Source: Candidatus Saccharimonadota bacterium (GTDB lineage: Bacteria > Patescibacteriota > Saccharimonadia > Saccharimonadales > Saccharimonadaceae). Taken from it: 64,000 nucleotides of DNA. Location: contig JAFWCN010000005.1 of NCBI GenBank assembly GCA_017536895.1, positions 62,001 through 126,000 of the forward strand. Direction: 5' to 3'. A program made the translations under genes and the position numbers. The notes under the pieces are model-generated. The model worked only from the letters and a program-made list of their open reading frames with translations. It was not told the origin of the DNA and did not search any database. Below, in pieces: positions 4,171 to 28,922 of the stretch (position 1 is its first letter; each line of letters begins with the position of its first letter).

Positions 4171-4776
4171 ATGTTAGTTATGAATTCTCGCCTTCTCGGC
4201 GCCCCAGTATTAAGTGTTCAAGCCGGTGGCCCAATCGGTAGAATCGTCGACGCCATCATAGATCCAGATAATCTTAGCGTTATTGCCTTTCACATCGACG
4301 GCCCACCCATCAATAAACAACAAAACATCCTCGATGTTCGTTCAGTTCGTGAATACTCTAGCTATGGCTTCGTTATCGACGATATCGACGAATTAGTTTC
4401 TCCAGACGACGTAATTAGAATTAATAACATCCTAAAACTGAATTTTAATCTCCTAAGTCTCAAAGTCGAAACCAAAAAAGGCTCTAAACTCGGCAAAGTT
4501 CAAGATTTTACTCTCACCTCCGAAGATTTCATTATTCAACAAATCATCGTCAAGCGCCCCATGATTAAATCACTCAACGACCCTGAACTAACTATCCCCC
4601 GAAATGAAATAGTCGAAATCACCGACTACAAAATTATTGTCAAAGAAGAAGAAAAAACCATCAAGAAGAAGGCCGAAAAACAAGAGTTTGTTCCTAATTT
4701 TGTAAATCCTTTTCGTGAGTCACAACCTGGCTTTGCGCCAGCTGATACGAAAACCCCTGACGCACAAGATAACTAA
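4171..4776 (+). CDS. PRC-barrel domain protein
   Basis: Product of 201 residues with two PRC-barrel-like halves: residues about 3-80 (SRLLGAPVLSVQAGGPIGRIVDAIIDPDN) and about 95-165 (LKVETKKGSKLGKVQDFTLTSEDF, IPRNEIVEI). PRC-barrels occur in RimM, in photosynthetic reaction centres and in many small proteins of unclear role. The C-terminus is a charged Lys/Glu tail followed by a polar segment. The start is leaderless: TGCTATAAT ends 6 bases before the ATG. It is convergent with recX and overlaps its 3' end by 83 bases. The domain call is confident; the cellular role is unknown. Confidence 0.8.
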   Translation: MLVMNSRLLGAPVLSVQAGGPIGRIVDAIIDPDNLSVIAFHIDGPPINKQQNILDVRSVREYSSYGFVIDDIDELVSPDDVIRINNILKLNFNLLSLKVETKKGSKLGKVQDFTLTSEDFIIQQIIVKRPMIKSLNDPELTIPRNEIVEITDYKIIVKEEEKTIKKKAEKQEFVPNFVNPFRESQPGFAPADTKTPDAQDN

Positions 4777-18166: not shown

Positions 18167-18249
18167 TGGGGTGGGATATCGGGATCGAACCGATAGCCCC
18201 TTGGGACGCTACGGTTCCCAGCTCGATGCACTCCACTGGATTATTTGTA
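18167..18249 (-). pseudogene. Degenerate tRNA-His copy
   Basis: The 27 bases at 18167-18193 (T arm, acceptor 3' strand and CCA) are identical to those of the intact tRNA-His at 18250-18276, 83 bases away. The part that should hold the D and anticodon arms has a different sequence, with a TGGGA/TCCCA stem, a 9-base loop and only a partial acceptor match. It does not fold as a functional tRNA. Confidence 0.6.
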
Positions 18250-21047: not shown

Positions 21048-21124
21048 GGATTCGTAGCTCAGTTGGTTAGAGCGCTGCCCTGTCACGGCAGAGGTCGCGA
21101 GTTCGAGTCTCGTCGGATCCGCCA
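21048..21124 (+). tRNA. tRNA-Asp(GTC)
   Basis: Complete 77-base cloverleaf: acceptor GGATTCG / CGGATCC, anticodon stem CTGCC / GGCAG with loop CTGTCAC, T loop TTCGAGT, encoded CCA. A TATAAT box lies at 21031-21036. Confidence 0.96.
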
Positions 21125-21134
21125 CAGTAAATCT

Positions 21135-21158
21135 AAATGCCTCCAGAGGGCATTTTTT
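21135..21158 (+). terminator. Terminator after tRNA-Asp
   Basis: Hairpin AAATGCC / GGCATTT followed by a T tract, 10 bases past the tRNA. Confidence 0.8.
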
Positions 21159-21183
21159 AAACTGGGAGACTCGTTCTTCGAAT

Positions 21184-21204
21184 CGAGTCTCGTCGGATCC
21201 GCCA
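21184..21204 (+). pseudogene. Orphan copy of the tRNA-Asp 3' end
   Basis: The last 21 bases of tRNA-Asp, including CCA, are repeated exactly 80 bases downstream. They are preceded by an inverted copy of part of the T stem, so that GAGACTCG and CGAGTCTC form a hairpin here. No D or anticodon arm remains. Confidence 0.75.
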
Positions 21205-21205
21205 T

Positions 21206-21246
21206 TGAATAAAAAATAAAGCCTAAAAGGCTTTGTTTTTTATTCA
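21206..21246. terminator. Bidirectional intrinsic terminator
   Basis: Nearly perfect palindrome with AAAGCCT / AGGCTTT at the centre and A/T tracts on both sides. Confidence 0.75.
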
Positions 21247-21260
21247 AATAGTGGTATTCT

Positions 21261-21378
21261 GACGAGTCGCGAACGAAAGTTCGCCCACTGTAGGAACCAA
21301 AAATAATCCGAAATTCATTTCGGATTATTTGGGGTGACGCCCAGTGGTCTCTTGCCCGTAGGGCAAGAGAGACTCGTC
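21261..21378. repeat. Perfectly paired four-way-junction element
   Basis: GACGAGTC (21261) pairs with GACTCGTC (21371). Inside, with no unpaired base at the junction, come hairpin GCGAAC-GAAA-GTTCGC (21269-21284), stem CCACTG/CAGTGG (21285, 21342) enclosing a 13-bp hairpin (21301-21330), and hairpin TCTCTTGCCC-GTA-GGGCAAGAGA (21348-21370). It ends 4 bases from the stop of the DHH-like gene. The inner 13-bp hairpin can serve as that gene's terminator. Confidence 0.75.
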
Positions 21379-21382
21379 CCTA

Positions 21383-23305
21383 CTACATCCCCGGAATCTT
21401 AAAAGCACCCGGATCGCTTCCTTGCGGATTATATACTTGATCTTGCATCGCTGGTTGCTCGCCAAGCGAAGTCGGTTCAGGCTTAGCAACTGGAGCAGCC
21501 GGCTCAATCGGTCCAGTTGGCGCTACAGGAATAGTCGGCTCTACAGGGGCAGTCATAGGATTAGGTATAGCCGAAACTGTTGGCTCGTCTGTCGGCATCG
21601 CCCCTGACATGTCAATCGGTGGCGTTGGCGGTGGTGGCAAAATTTGCTCATCTGGCATCGGCATATAATTCATCTCCGGCACACCATTTATCTCAGGATT
21701 CTCCGGTACTGCCGGTGCATTCATCGCCGCTGGATTTTCAACTGGAGCAACTGATTCATTAGTAGTTCCTTCGCCATTTACGCTCTCCAGGGCATCCTCC
21801 AACATCTTACCGTATTTACTCTCGTCTTCCATTGTCATCGGTTTTGAAGCTAAATCCTCGCTTGGCTGCAAAACTTTTTCTTGCGCTGGTGCATCCACTG
21901 CATGTTCTTCTGGATTCGACGGAGCATCAGGTTTAACTTCATCCATATTTGAAGTGCCATTTTCGCTATCAATTGTTACTTTTTCTTCCTTCGCCTCAGG
22001 TACTGCTTCCGCCCCCGCATGAGATAAACTCTCTTCCGCCGCTTTCAAATCGTCCAACAAAGAATTGTCGCCTTCAGATTCCTCTGATTCCTCTGATTTG
22101 TCATTTTGCTCATCTTTATTATTTTTTTCGTTATCAGAATCTGCACTAGAGCTCACATCTTCACCTGTTTCATCAGAGGCTGATTCGTCCTTACTATCTT
22201 CGTTACTTTCAGCATCATCATTTTTTCCACCATTTACATGCTCAATATCCAAACCCGTCAAATCATCTTTCTCTGCGTTTTCTCCATCAGTTTCAATAGC
22301 ACCATCGTTTTTGCTAGACAAAGAAAGCATCTCATTATCAATATCCGGCGTAATATTCTTTGACACTAATTGTTGATTCGCACCAGACTCCATTAACTGT
22401 GAAGATATTTGCATCGTTTCCGGTGTTGTACCAGCATTTGAAAACCTGTTCGTTGCCGCAACAATACCGGTCAAAAACGCGGTTGCTTCTTCTTTACCAA
22501 TCTCTGCTCCAGACACATTATAAAGCAATTTTGCAATCATTTCCGACACAGAACTTGCATGCTTATCACTCCATTCAATTTCGCCAAACTTACCCGGATT
22601 TCCAGTCGTTACATTAATAATTACTGCATCATGCATAATCCGTCCATGCTCTCTCAGGGCAGAATCAAGATCGATTCCATTTGCCACATCCAGCGCCAAC
22701 ACCAAGTCAACATTATAATCACCATACGAAAAGTCTAAATCACCTTCAGTAATCTTTGTTTTATAAGGTGTAATATAAATCTTCACATAATCACCATCTA
22801 ATTTATATCTTAGATGGTCAGCCTTTTCTTTCGAAAGCGCAATTACAAAATCTTGTAAAGTATCCGCCGACGACTCAAAAGTATCTTCCGGCTTCAGAAA
22901 TTCCAACGCATTCGGAGTCGCACCAGAATAAATCGCCGTCGCTCGCTTACCTAATTTATCCAAATACAACGATAAACCAATTGCCGCCGCCATCTCATCT
23001 ACTGACGGATCAGATGAAAGTGCAATCAAAACATTTTTAGAATCTCGTATTTTACCAGCTACTTCCGTATAAATATCCTTTGGACCTTCTGCGGTGGCTG
23101 TTTCAGGCATATCCGGCGTTGATAAAGGATCAACTACAACCGAGCTACTCGGTGTCGTAGCCGTTGCTGGCGTAACGTCAACCTCAGTCGTAGCATTATC
23201 TACCGGTGCAGCATTCGCCTCCGGCATCGTCGCAGAATCTGCCCCAGTAACTGTAGGATCTACCGGTGGCATACTTGGTGTAACAGCTGTATTATCTTCT
23301 GGCAT
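21383..23305 (-). CDS. Degenerate DHH-phosphoesterase-like protein with long disordered tail
   Basis: Product of 640 residues: a Pro/Thr/Ala-rich disordered N-terminus (1-70), a DHH/NrnA-like domain (about 75-330) and a 300-residue acidic then Pro-rich tail. Family landmarks are NVLIALSSDPSVDEMAAAIGLSLYLDKLGKRATAIYSG and VDLVLALDVANG. However, the position of the DHH motif reads IINVTTGNPG, and several metal-binding Asp and His residues are absent, so nuclease or phosphatase activity is unlikely. Start: ATG with an AGAAGGA site. A regulatory or scaffolding role is plausible. Family is moderately sure; function is unknown. Confidence 0.65.
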   Translation of the reverse strand: MPEDNTAVTPSMPPVDPTVTGADSATMPEANAAPVDNATTEVDVTPATATTPSSSVVVDPLSTPDMPETATAEGPKDIYTEVAGKIRDSKNVLIALSSDPSVDEMAAAIGLSLYLDKLGKRATAIYSGATPNALEFLKPEDTFESSADTLQDFVIALSKEKADHLRYKLDGDYVKIYITPYKTKITEGDLDFSYGDYNVDLVLALDVANGIDLDSALREHGRIMHDAVIINVTTGNPGKFGEIEWSDKHASSVSEMIAKLLYNVSGAEIGKEEATAFLTGIVAATNRFSNAGTTPETMQISSQLMESGANQQLVSKNITPDIDNEMLSLSSKNDGAIETDGENAEKDDLTGLDIEHVNGGKNDDAESNEDSKDESASDETGEDVSSSADSDNEKNNKDEQNDKSEESEESEGDNSLLDDLKAAEESLSHAGAEAVPEAKEEKVTIDSENGTSNMDEVKPDAPSNPEEHAVDAPAQEKVLQPSEDLASKPMTMEDESKYGKMLEDALESVNGEGTTNESVAPVENPAAMNAPAVPENPEINGVPEMNYMPMPDEQILPPPPTPPIDMSGAMPTDEPTVSAIPNPMTAPVEPTIPVAPTGPIEPAAPVAKPEPTSLGEQPAMQDQVYNPQGSDPGAFKIPGM

Positions 23306-26450: not shown

Positions 26451-28922
26451 TTATAGACATCCCCAGTTTTGCCCCGTAGTCACCTCCACCGCGAGCTTAA
26501 TATTGAGCTCCGGCGCCACCGCTTCCATTTCCTGTTTCAATATTTTTTTCACTTCTTCAACTTTGTTTACATCACATTCTACAATCAACGAATCATGTAC
26601 CTGCATAATCAAATCCGCACCCTCTGGTAATTTCTCGTCCACCCGAATCATCGCTCGTTTCATCAAATCCGCTTCCGTTCCCTGAATCGGCATATTTTCT
26701 GCTGCCCGAATCGCGGCTTGGCGAATCACAAAATTAGCAGATTTTACATCGGGAGTCGGACGTCGCCGCCCATAAAACGTCTCCACATAACCCTGTTCGT
26801 TCGCCTGTTTCAAAATTCTTTCGAGTAACCTCTTTACTGGCGCTCTCAATTTGAAATAATTATCAATAAATTCTTTCGCCTCATAAAATGGCATCTTCGC
26901 CGCATCCGCGAGCCCTCTCACGCTCATCCCATACAAAACCCCAAAATTAATTACTTTTGCCGCTCGTCGTTGAGCCTTAGTCACTTCATTAATGGGCACA
27001 TTAAATGCTTCCGAAGCAGTCTTAGTGTGAATATCTACATCATTATTAAAATCATCAATTAGCTCCTTATCATTAGCAAGAATCGCCGCAAGTCGTAGTT
27101 CAAACTGTGAATAATCTGCTGACACCAATACCTTGCTTTCCGGCGCCACAAATCCTTCCCGAATTTTCTTACCAGCATCAGTCCTAACCGGAATATTTTG
27201 CAAATTCGGATCTTTTGAAGAAAGCCGCCCCGTCGCCGTCACATTTTGCGTAAAAGTCGTATGGACCCGCCCCTCGTCATCCGCCAAAGTTGGCATCGGA
27301 ATAATATAAGTCGAAAGCAATTTCGAAGCCTCACGATATTCCATAATCTTATCAATAATTGGATGGAGTGGTTGCAACTTTTCTAGTTCCTTCACACCTG
27401 TCGAGTATCCTCTCGTTGTCTTCTTAATTCCCTTCGTCGGTAGTTTCAAAACTTCAAATAGTACTTCCGACAGTTGTATCGGCGAATTCACGTTAAAATC
27501 CCGCCCTGCAAGTTCACAGATTTCTTTTTCTAGCCCCCGAACTTCCTCCGCATATTCTTTCTCTAACTTCTTAAAATAATCTCGGTCGATCAACATCCCT
27601 TTCTTTTCCATCTTGTAAAGAATTGGAATTAAAGGCAAATCAAAATCCTTGTAAACTTTATAAAGCTTCGGATTTTTCTCAAATTCCGTTCTTTGTCTCT
27701 GATATTCTTCTTCAGGTACTACAAGCTTTGGTTCTTCGCGAGATAATGGATTAAGCAAAAACCTCGCCTGACCAAGATCCCAATATTCTTTCCCGTTTAA
27801 TATCTCCGAAGCAACCTCCTCATCCTTATGCATCAACCCTTTAACATCCCAATCGATAACTAAATCAGACGAATTTGAATCTGGAAACACTTGATTCGAG
27901 ACCGTCCGCGACCAACGGGGAGCGGATTGAGCGACTGAGCCCCGTAACGACGGGCGCGAAGGAGCGTGTCGAGAATTAAGTGTTTCAGATTCAAATTCAT
28001 CAGAACTACCTTTTCGAGCGTGTCGAGAATTAAGTGTTTCAGATCCAAATTCGCTAGAATTAATTTTACGAATGAGAGAATTAAACTCTAATTTCTTGAG
28101 TCCATCAACAATCTTTTCCTTGTCAAATACAAAATCTTTCAAATCATCAAGTTTTACCGGTGCGTCAAACATAATTTTCGCGAGCTCTCGCGACATATAT
28201 GCCGATTCACGCCCCGCTTCCAACTTCGAATGCGTTGAACCAGTAATCTTATCCAGATTTTCATAAACCCCATCCAGACTCCCATATTCATTCAAAAGCT
28301 TCGCCGCAGTTTTTTCGCCAATCCCAGCCACTCCCGGAATATTATCCGACGAATCGCCCTTCAACGCTTTAAGGTCAAGAAACTGTGATTTCAAAATCCC
28401 ATATTTTGCTTCTACTTCTTTTACGTCAATCTTTTCAATGTTCGAAAACCCCTTCAAAATCCGCCACATATGTGTATTCGAATCCACAATCTGCAACATG
28501 TCAAGATCTGACGAGATAATATACGTATCCCAATCGCCCGCCTCGTCCGCCTGCAAACTCAAAGTGCCAATAATATCATCCGCTTCATAGTCATCAATTT
28601 CCACAAAGTTCCATCCAAGATTCAGTATCAATTCACGAAGCAACGGAATCTGCGCATAAAAATCCTCCCCTGGTTTTACCCGTCCCGCTTTGTAATCCTT
28701 AAAAATCGCTCTTCTTTTCGATGTCGAACTCTTCGAATCCCAAGCTACTACCACCTTCGTCGGGTCTATTTTCCTTACAATTTCCATCGCAATTGCGGCA
28801 AATCCGTACACTCCACCCGTCGGCGTTCCATCCGTCAGCGACAAAGCTCCCATCGCATAATACCCCCTATAAAACACCGACTTCCCATCTATCAGCACTA
28901 ATCTTTTCGTGCTAGAACTCAA
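26451..28922 (-). CDS. polA: DNA polymerase I carrying in-frame palindromic insertions
   Basis: Gap-filling and primer-removing polymerase. The 823-residue product has the 5'-3' exonuclease domain (about 1-290: VLIDGKSVFYRGYYAM, YEADDIIGT, LKGDSSDNIPGVAGIGEKTA) and the family A polymerase domain (about 430-823: SADYSQFELRLAA, RRAAKVINFGVLYGMS, MQVHDSLIVE). No intact 3'-5' proofreading domain is evident. Residues about 290-351, between the two domains, derive from a palindrome and a partial tandem copy, giving two nearly identical SETLNSRHA blocks. The start is TTG within a TTGA overlap with the upstream kinase stop, so translation is coupled. Confidence 0.95.
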   Translation of the reverse strand: MSSSTKRLVLIDGKSVFYRGYYAMGALSLTDGTPTGGVYGFAAIAMEIVRKIDPTKVVVAWDSKSSTSKRRAIFKDYKAGRVKPGEDFYAQIPLLRELILNLGWNFVEIDDYEADDIIGTLSLQADEAGDWDTYIISSDLDMLQIVDSNTHMWRILKGFSNIEKIDVKEVEAKYGILKSQFLDLKALKGDSSDNIPGVAGIGEKTAAKLLNEYGSLDGVYENLDKITGSTHSKLEAGRESAYMSRELAKIMFDAPVKLDDLKDFVFDKEKIVDGLKKLEFNSLIRKINSSEFGSETLNSRHARKGSSDEFESETLNSRHAPSRPSLRGSVAQSAPRWSRTVSNQVFPDSNSSDLVIDWDVKGLMHKDEEVASEILNGKEYWDLGQARFLLNPLSREEPKLVVPEEEYQRQRTEFEKNPKLYKVYKDFDLPLIPILYKMEKKGMLIDRDYFKKLEKEYAEEVRGLEKEICELAGRDFNVNSPIQLSEVLFEVLKLPTKGIKKTTRGYSTGVKELEKLQPLHPIIDKIMEYREASKLLSTYIIPMPTLADDEGRVHTTFTQNVTATGRLSSKDPNLQNIPVRTDAGKKIREGFVAPESKVLVSADYSQFELRLAAILANDKELIDDFNNDVDIHTKTASEAFNVPINEVTKAQRRAAKVINFGVLYGMSVRGLADAAKMPFYEAKEFIDNYFKLRAPVKRLLERILKQANEQGYVETFYGRRRPTPDVKSANFVIRQAAIRAAENMPIQGTEADLMKRAMIRVDEKLPEGADLIMQVHDSLIVECDVNKVEEVKKILKQEMEAVAPELNIKLAVEVTTGQNWGCL
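27868..28053. repeat. In-frame palindromic element plus partial tandem copy in polA
   Basis: Arms 27868-27897 and 27973-28001 pair with few mismatches. GA at 27898 faces GA at 27971, followed by GAC/GTC. The core holds GCCCCGT-AACG-ACGGGC and GCGAAGGAGCG. The right flank GAGCGTGTCGAGAATTAAG... recurs at 28016-28053, 54 bp away, with one mismatch. The core reads in the same frame and orientation as that of recX. Confidence 0.85.

Follow-up and report, generated by a model that had tools for sequence, protein, structure and literature searches.

A four-way junction behind a tRNA-Asp gene belongs to a family of palindromic units at tRNA ends in Saccharibacteria

The four-way junction encoded at positions 21261-21378 of the window, a stretch of 64,000 nucleotides from a Candidatus Saccharimonadota bacterium, represents a single copy among hundreds of a palindromic unit found behind tRNA genes in nearly the whole genus. 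The reading preferred here, with a probability of about one half, is that the junction is the form of a tRNA-tail repeat unit that bears an insert, called X, and that it represents a palindromic mobile insertion element acting at the level of DNA. This reading builds on the anatomy of the units, their presence/absence polymorphism, their occurrence as discrete and tandem copies, their conservation at the DNA level and the separability of X. What is new is a variant of the RtT type of tRNA-tail repeat with an apparently mobile palindromic insert, which is widespread and was unexpected.

The 118 bases form four stems that abut with no unpaired base at the branch point. The outer stem of 8 bp pairs 21261-21268 with 21371-21378 on the plus strand; its 5' strand is an antisense copy of the 3' strand of the T-arm, and its 3' strand is the start of a displaced, now truncated tRNA-Asp end, which is retained through CCA in fresh units elsewhere. 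Hairpin 1 (21269-21284), with 6 bp and the form GCGAAC-GAAA-GTTCGC, consists of an antisense T-loop followed by the 5' half of a second sense T-loop (GTTCG), and in other units the T-loop sequence of the adjacent tRNA recurs in this hairpin. The insert X supplies the remaining two arms. Arm 2 (21285-21347), recognised from an R1 match of 93.7 bits together with covariation and column conservation, has 6 bp, an internal loop and an inner 13-bp hairpin, and hairpin 3 (21348-21370) has 10 bp, a GTA loop and a variable sequence. The minimum free energy of 21261-21378 is -68.5 kcal/mol compared with -30.1 +/- 3.8 kcal/mol for 200 dinucleotide shuffles (z = -10.1), none of which equals it. The fold behaves alike on the minus strand and is identical under DNA parameters. 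The perfect four-way junction of the original prediction, with stems of 8, 6, 6 plus 13 and 10 bp and a GAAA loop, is thus reproduced. The fold is far outside chance expectation (0/200 shuffles as good), and the junction recurs with compensatory changes in about 90 other copies.

The intact tRNA-Asp (GTC) gene lies at 21048-21124 on the plus strand (ARAGORN; Rfam RF00005), and its last 22 nt (21103-21124) are the stretch that is repeated downstream (direct repeat D2). It is followed by a short tRNA-tail unit of 80 bp without X (21125-21204, plus strand), recognised from the direct repeat and a comparison of unit lengths, in which a terminator-like hairpin (21125-21164), an antisense T-arm (21165-21182) and an exact copy of the tRNA end (21183-21204) stand in this order. 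Similar units of 64-87 bp are found at other tRNAs of the same genome. What had been called a tRNA-Asp remnant is this second tRNA-Asp 3' end, an exact copy of 22 bp, and the string it was said to share with the junction is GAGACTCGT, located in the T-arm remnant at 21166-21174. The X-bearing unit has a palindromic tail hairpin at 21205-21247 (plus strand; inverted repeat I1) with 20-bp arms that are 95% complementary. The junction is placed between tRNA-Asp and the stop codon (21383) of a gene for a 640-aa protein (21383-23305, minus strand), for which there is no Pfam match. This gene has a paralogue, 63% identical, at G000:C4:29649-31571, and each of the two paralogues adjoins a tRNA-Asp of its own. 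Within this genome the tRNA-Asp of the window (contig C17) is filled and that of contig C4 is empty, and across species the tRNA-Asp locus holds the unit in some and is empty in others. Elsewhere in the window, at 18167-18249 (minus strand), a unit of 83 bp stands behind the tRNA-His gene and closes with 24 nt that copy the 3' end of this tRNA exactly; besides its antisense T-arm, the unit has another kind of small hairpin, GCGTCCCAAGGGGC, which recurs behind other tRNAs (L041, L110). An X match at the tRNA-Arg(tct) of the window is a false positive of a loose pattern.

Throughout the units, the antisense T-arm makes up the 5' strand of the outer stem plus hairpin 1 and scores 10.6 with its tRNA against 6.4 +/- 1.6 for other tRNAs; no convincing unit bearing the T-arm of another tRNA was found. 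The arm is altered, with GAGAAC or GCGAAC in units where the reverse complement gives TCGAAC. The 3' strand of hairpin 1 is T-loop sequence (GTTCG), and X (arm 2 and hairpin 3) comes next, followed by the tRNA end; in this way the two hairpins of X interrupt the second sense T-arm at its T-loop (57|58-60). Among 69 clear cases, 61 take up the tRNA again at position 58-60 after X and 52 continue to A76, and a displaced tRNA end (at least 12) is present in 66 of 92 units versus 0.4% of controls. In the genome of the window, 13 of 49 tRNA loci have a copy of their own end downstream; in the control pairing for such copies, a length of 11 nt is attained in 3 of 209 and one of 14 nt in none. A palindromic tail hairpin also belongs to the X-bearing unit, and unit lengths are discrete, namely about 178-194 bp with X (about 184), about 64-87 bp without X and in some cases 250-266 bp, and exact or near-exact tandem units occur (L215, 182/364; L177, 183/367). 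All four stems appear in the plain minimum-energy fold of a wider stretch in 64 of 92 tRNA-linked units. Because the T-arm is present both in antisense and as a split sense copy, one DNA strand can refold the T-arm duplex as outer stem and hairpin 1, and the branching of X at the T-loop split produces the four-way junction.

Numerous tRNAs in this genome have no unit, nor do many sister species. The displaced 3' tRNA fragment is a feature that the units share with tRNA-integrated genomic islands; at about 64-266 bp, they are too short for an integrase or a cargo gene between the two tRNA ends, and no cargo-bearing cassette was found between tRNA ends. An antisense copy reaching over the acceptor stem and CCA is convincing by eye but was rejected, with a score of 3.99 against 3.96 in the control. 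In minimal copies (L119, L120, L006) the antisense T-arm is missing and arm 2 begins directly at the CCA end of the tRNA (CCAUCG-UAGGAG), and at four loci (L005, L104, L080, L203) the tail palindrome has an extra insert of about 80 nt (TTTTTCTTGCTCGCTC..GCAAGAAGAAAA).

A DNA search of the genus gives related copies behind Asp, Glu, Leu, Ser, Arg, Gly and Ala tRNAs. A covariance model comprising hairpin 1 and arm 2, built from nine copies, matches 144 of 170 genomes of the genus, with 1 to 22 copies in each and 6 in the genome of the window; matches are also found in a sister genus of the same family and seldom further out. A covariance search in other Saccharibacteria had been proposed with the original prediction, which named a lack of homologues and broken stems in sister strains as signs against it; homologues are present, and the stems covary. 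The named records with matches are Candidatus Saccharibacteria MAGs, many of them from ruminant gut. Nearly all strong copies start about 56-65 nt 3' of a tRNA on the same strand, and most tRNA types have copies behind them. X is more similar across species at the same tRNA (0.684) than at different tRNAs (0.610), and many units are therefore old and vertically inherited, with much of the pattern due to descent. No known Rfam family reaches the gathering score at the junction, and none was found for sample X loci at lax thresholds. Phage sequences give only unrelated 32-nt matches, and IMG/VR has no exact pattern match. Pattern matches in Planctomycetes, Chloroflexi, Actinomycetota and others are chance matches, none of which fits the covariance model. 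A search of the literature available returned nothing directly on such units in Saccharibacteria or on the mechanism of RtT.

The conservation of the fold points to the DNA level. Over 91 copies, both sides have changed in 25 of 28 pairs, with 486 double-change cells versus 120 in shuffles and a covariation score of 0.527 versus 0.155, and the signal is lost when the partner is slid. The internal loop of arm 2 is near-invariant over these copies (GUAGGA/GACGCC), with GUAGGAG..CGAG on one side and GAG..CGACGCC on the other, and could be a binding site for RNA or protein. In a rarer form of arm 2 (L011, L012, L018, L020/L121, L177) the 5' side reads GACGA and the 3' side AGGAGG, which gives the impression of an internal-loop motif turned round with its strands exchanged. 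Arm 2, hairpin 1 and hairpin 3 together contain 50 G.U, 41 A.C and 2955 Watson-Crick cells, whereas the tRNA stems of the same loci, which serve as control, contain 130, 13 and 1891; for G.U:A.C of 50:41 versus 130:13 the p-value is 3e-10, which is indicative given that the copies are related. Selection on an RNA fold would be expected to admit G.U pairs but to disfavour A.C in the strand concerned, and the symmetry seen here thus points to a fold kept at the level of DNA, either as a selected cruciform or single-strand structure or through an exactness that comes from hairpin-templated copying.

X, in the form of arm 2 plus a hairpin, also lies inside genes, namely those for QueA, ValS, a P-type ATPase, a diacylglycerol-kinase-like protein, TrmD, RecX, PheT and a methyltransferase (apart from QueA and PheT, the names are read from the translations). 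These copies are in frame and free of stop codons, and they occur in both orientations, which agrees with the DNA-level reading. When QueA is aligned with the solved enzyme 1yy3, its 68 extra residues fall precisely between aligned residues that are neighbours in 1yy3, and X is about 75 nt long where it can be measured. In polA of the window, a comparison with the X-bearing valS and ATPase genes identifies an in-frame palindromic insert without X at 27893-27976. It is the palindrome that hosts X in valS (L228) and in the ATPase gene (L205), 75 nt shorter, and the most economical alignment puts X in the loop of the hairpin CCCGT-AACG-ACGGG. In this comparison, the polA palindrome and those of valS and the ATPase gene are the empty and filled states of a site for X.

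At 27860-28075 within polA (26451-28922, minus strand), the in-frame palindromic insert shows direct repeats of 54 bp (SETLNSRHA twice) together with inverted arms specific to the locus, and it belongs to the palindrome family that hosts X in valS and an ATPase gene. Further repeated coding inserts are present in valS (L228), with SEGVRSAAAREVAPAAHGDGPAGRAPKI twice and an NTFETVRDN motif. In-frame palindromes in essential genes of these genomes seem to form several families. At another locus (L151, position about 4413-4488, minus strand), X lies within a CIRCE-like inverted repeat (TTAGCAC..GAGTGCTAA), another hairpin target.

If the units are mobile DNA elements, their working form would be an extruded or single-stranded DNA fold rather than an RNA. 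X would be recognised through its conserved internal loop and would insert into hairpin loops, while the tail units would arise and expand at tRNA ends, which may tolerate insertion because the tRNA is restored. The units would move rather than merely duplicate in place, and candidate drivers are host replication or repair, or a recombinase. Tyrosine recombinases, serine recombinases, reverse transcriptases and Y1 transposases (PF00589, PF00239, PF00078, PF01797) have no link to copy number, and no mobilising protein was found among them. One Xer-type recombinase is present in each of the 17 genomes tested and does not track copy number, and the Y1 transposase PF01797 is absent from 15 of the 17, including the genome of the window and most of the high-copy ones. 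The integron integrase model TIGR02249 stays below its cut-off in a scan of the two extra recombinases of this genome and one Xer-type recombinase of a sister genome. The negative results on mobilising proteins weigh against the mobile reading, as do the greater similarity of X at the same tRNA across species and the lack of a convincing unit with the T-arm of another tRNA; the small-RNA annotation of E. coli RtT and the near-invariant loop leave some room for a transcribed role or a binding site.

Several alternative readings were weighed. The original prediction included a structured RNA, and the tRNA transcript could give rise to a functional small RNA or a cis-element, in the manner of RtT/RttR of E. 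coli, with the junction as its active fold. The homologues, the strong covariation and the near-invariant internal loops are in line with this claim, as are the location of the units on the strand of the tRNA and the annotation of E. coli RtT, which has the same layout, as a small RNA. However, the stems have almost no G-U pairs, with A.C about as frequent as G.U, and a role at the RNA level is not favoured because they lack the wobble signature of the tRNAs at the same loci. A terminator-like palindrome also stands between the tRNA and the junction, X occurs inside genes in both orientations, and the unit is missing from many tRNAs of the same genome and from many sister species, all of which makes an RNA function rather unlikely. 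The original prediction also considered repeated inverted duplications. This largely holds where an altered antisense T-arm pairs with a split sense copy, in the outer stem and hairpin 1, but it does not cover arm 2 and hairpin 3, which are a separate recurring element. Its third suggestion, a decoy for junction-resolving enzymes, is a conjecture that the present findings neither strengthen nor weaken. More broadly, the units might be by-products of replication template switching at tRNA hairpins without dedicated machinery, formed by repeated inverted and tandem duplication, with perfect pairing through hairpin-templated correction and with X as a separate palindromic repeat caught inside. 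Such an origin would explain why T-arm copies run sense-antisense-sense and why stems are almost purely Watson-Crick, and it fits the tandem units and the E. coli tyrT array of like form. It has difficulty with the identical and exact split at 58-60 at many tRNA types, with an antisense T-loop that is altered in a consistent way (G[A/C]GAAC for the expected TCGAAC) in both Saccharibacteria and E. coli, and with loop bases that are near-invariant across 91 copies, and is likewise rather unlikely.

Two further readings are given little weight. In an integron-like cassette site, a tyrosine recombinase would join the folded strand to the T-arm of the tRNA, with the tRNA in the place of attI and the four-way junction in that of attC. 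The directly repeated tRNA end, the imperfect inverted repeat holding a variable insert, the orientation fixed by the target and the tandem arrays are as expected for such a site; however, the units have no ORF cargo, no integron integrase is above the cut-off among the recombinases tested, and the Xer-type recombinase found in 17/17 genomes does not follow copy number, so this reading is very unlikely. An ordinary bidirectional terminator between convergent genes would suit the position between the stop codon of the 640-aa gene (21383) and the tRNA as well as the minus-strand arm-2 hairpin that is followed by TTATTTTT. It is scarcely credible given that copies elsewhere stand before promoters, inside genes and behind tRNAs that already have a terminator, and that termination does not need a conserved internal loop.

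The tyrT/RtT repeats of E. coli are an old case that has long been known and, to our knowledge, has no explanation. The 178-bp repeat unit at E. coli tyrT/tyrV (RttR) comprises GGGGAAGGATGAGAAGCTTCG (an antisense T-arm with the GAGAA alteration), AAGGTTCGA, a hairpin block and AATCCTTCCCCCACCACCA. RtT (RF00391) resembles the units described here in being a repeat of similar length behind a tRNA, with the E. coli unit ending in the last 19 bp of the tRNA, in its antisense T-arm with the GAGAA alteration, in a sense T-arm that is split at the T-loop by hairpins and in its tandem copies. The antisense T-arm and split T-loop are traits read here from the E. coli sequence, and we know of no published definition of RtT that includes them. 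Unlike RtT, the Saccharibacteria units have X as insert instead of the RtT hairpins and stand behind most tRNA types, whereas E. coli RtT stands behind one tRNA, and X is additionally found inside genes. The RF00391 covariance model (cut-off, 45 bits) finds nothing in the window or elsewhere in its genome, nor in X units even when E<=1 is allowed; within the genus it matches 7 of 118 genomes, with one match above the cut-off. The four matches that were read occupy the same slot, immediately behind Gln and Arg tRNAs, but with two other hairpins replacing X. X and RtT are therefore alternative inserts of one architecture, by descent or by convergence.

The antisense T-arm with a sense T-arm split at the T-loop provides a general anatomy for the tyrT/RtT repeats of E. 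coli, and an RtT-like architecture is spread over most tRNA types within one bacterial genus. One short insert occurs both behind tRNAs and in frame in essential genes, which offers many natural replicates for testing how small palindromes can spread when no transposase is present. It is possible, as a tentative generalisation, that an unrecognised class of folded-DNA mobile units with the T-arm as attachment site extends from Saccharibacteria to E. coli; in these units one strand would refold the T-arm and carry an exchangeable two-hairpin insert (X, RtT or others) at the T-loop, and the insert would also jump alone into hairpin loops of genes.

Other known systems share some of these features. 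Rickettsia palindromic elements (RPE) are short palindromic inserts that lie in frame within genes. X is likewise short, palindromic and in frame inside essential genes, a likeness of description rather than of sequence, but it differs from RPE in also occurring in split T-arm repeats behind tRNAs. REP elements with RAYT transposases are palindromes tagged with GTAG/CGTC that have GTAG at the foot of the hairpin, and they resemble X in carrying GTAG, with CGTC on the opposite strand, and in having both intergenic and intragenic copies (PMC3733652). In contrast to REP/RAYT systems, most high-copy genomes here are without a Y1 transposase, and the GTAG of X is located in the internal loop. The attC site of integrons is an imperfect inverted repeat with a variable insert, and its single strand can rebuild a duplex recombination site. 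The units are also imperfect inverted repeats with a variable insert in which one strand is able to rebuild a duplex site; however, they have no visible R/L boxes or cargo genes, no integron integrase is found among the recombinases scanned, and the site in the units is the T-arm of a tRNA.
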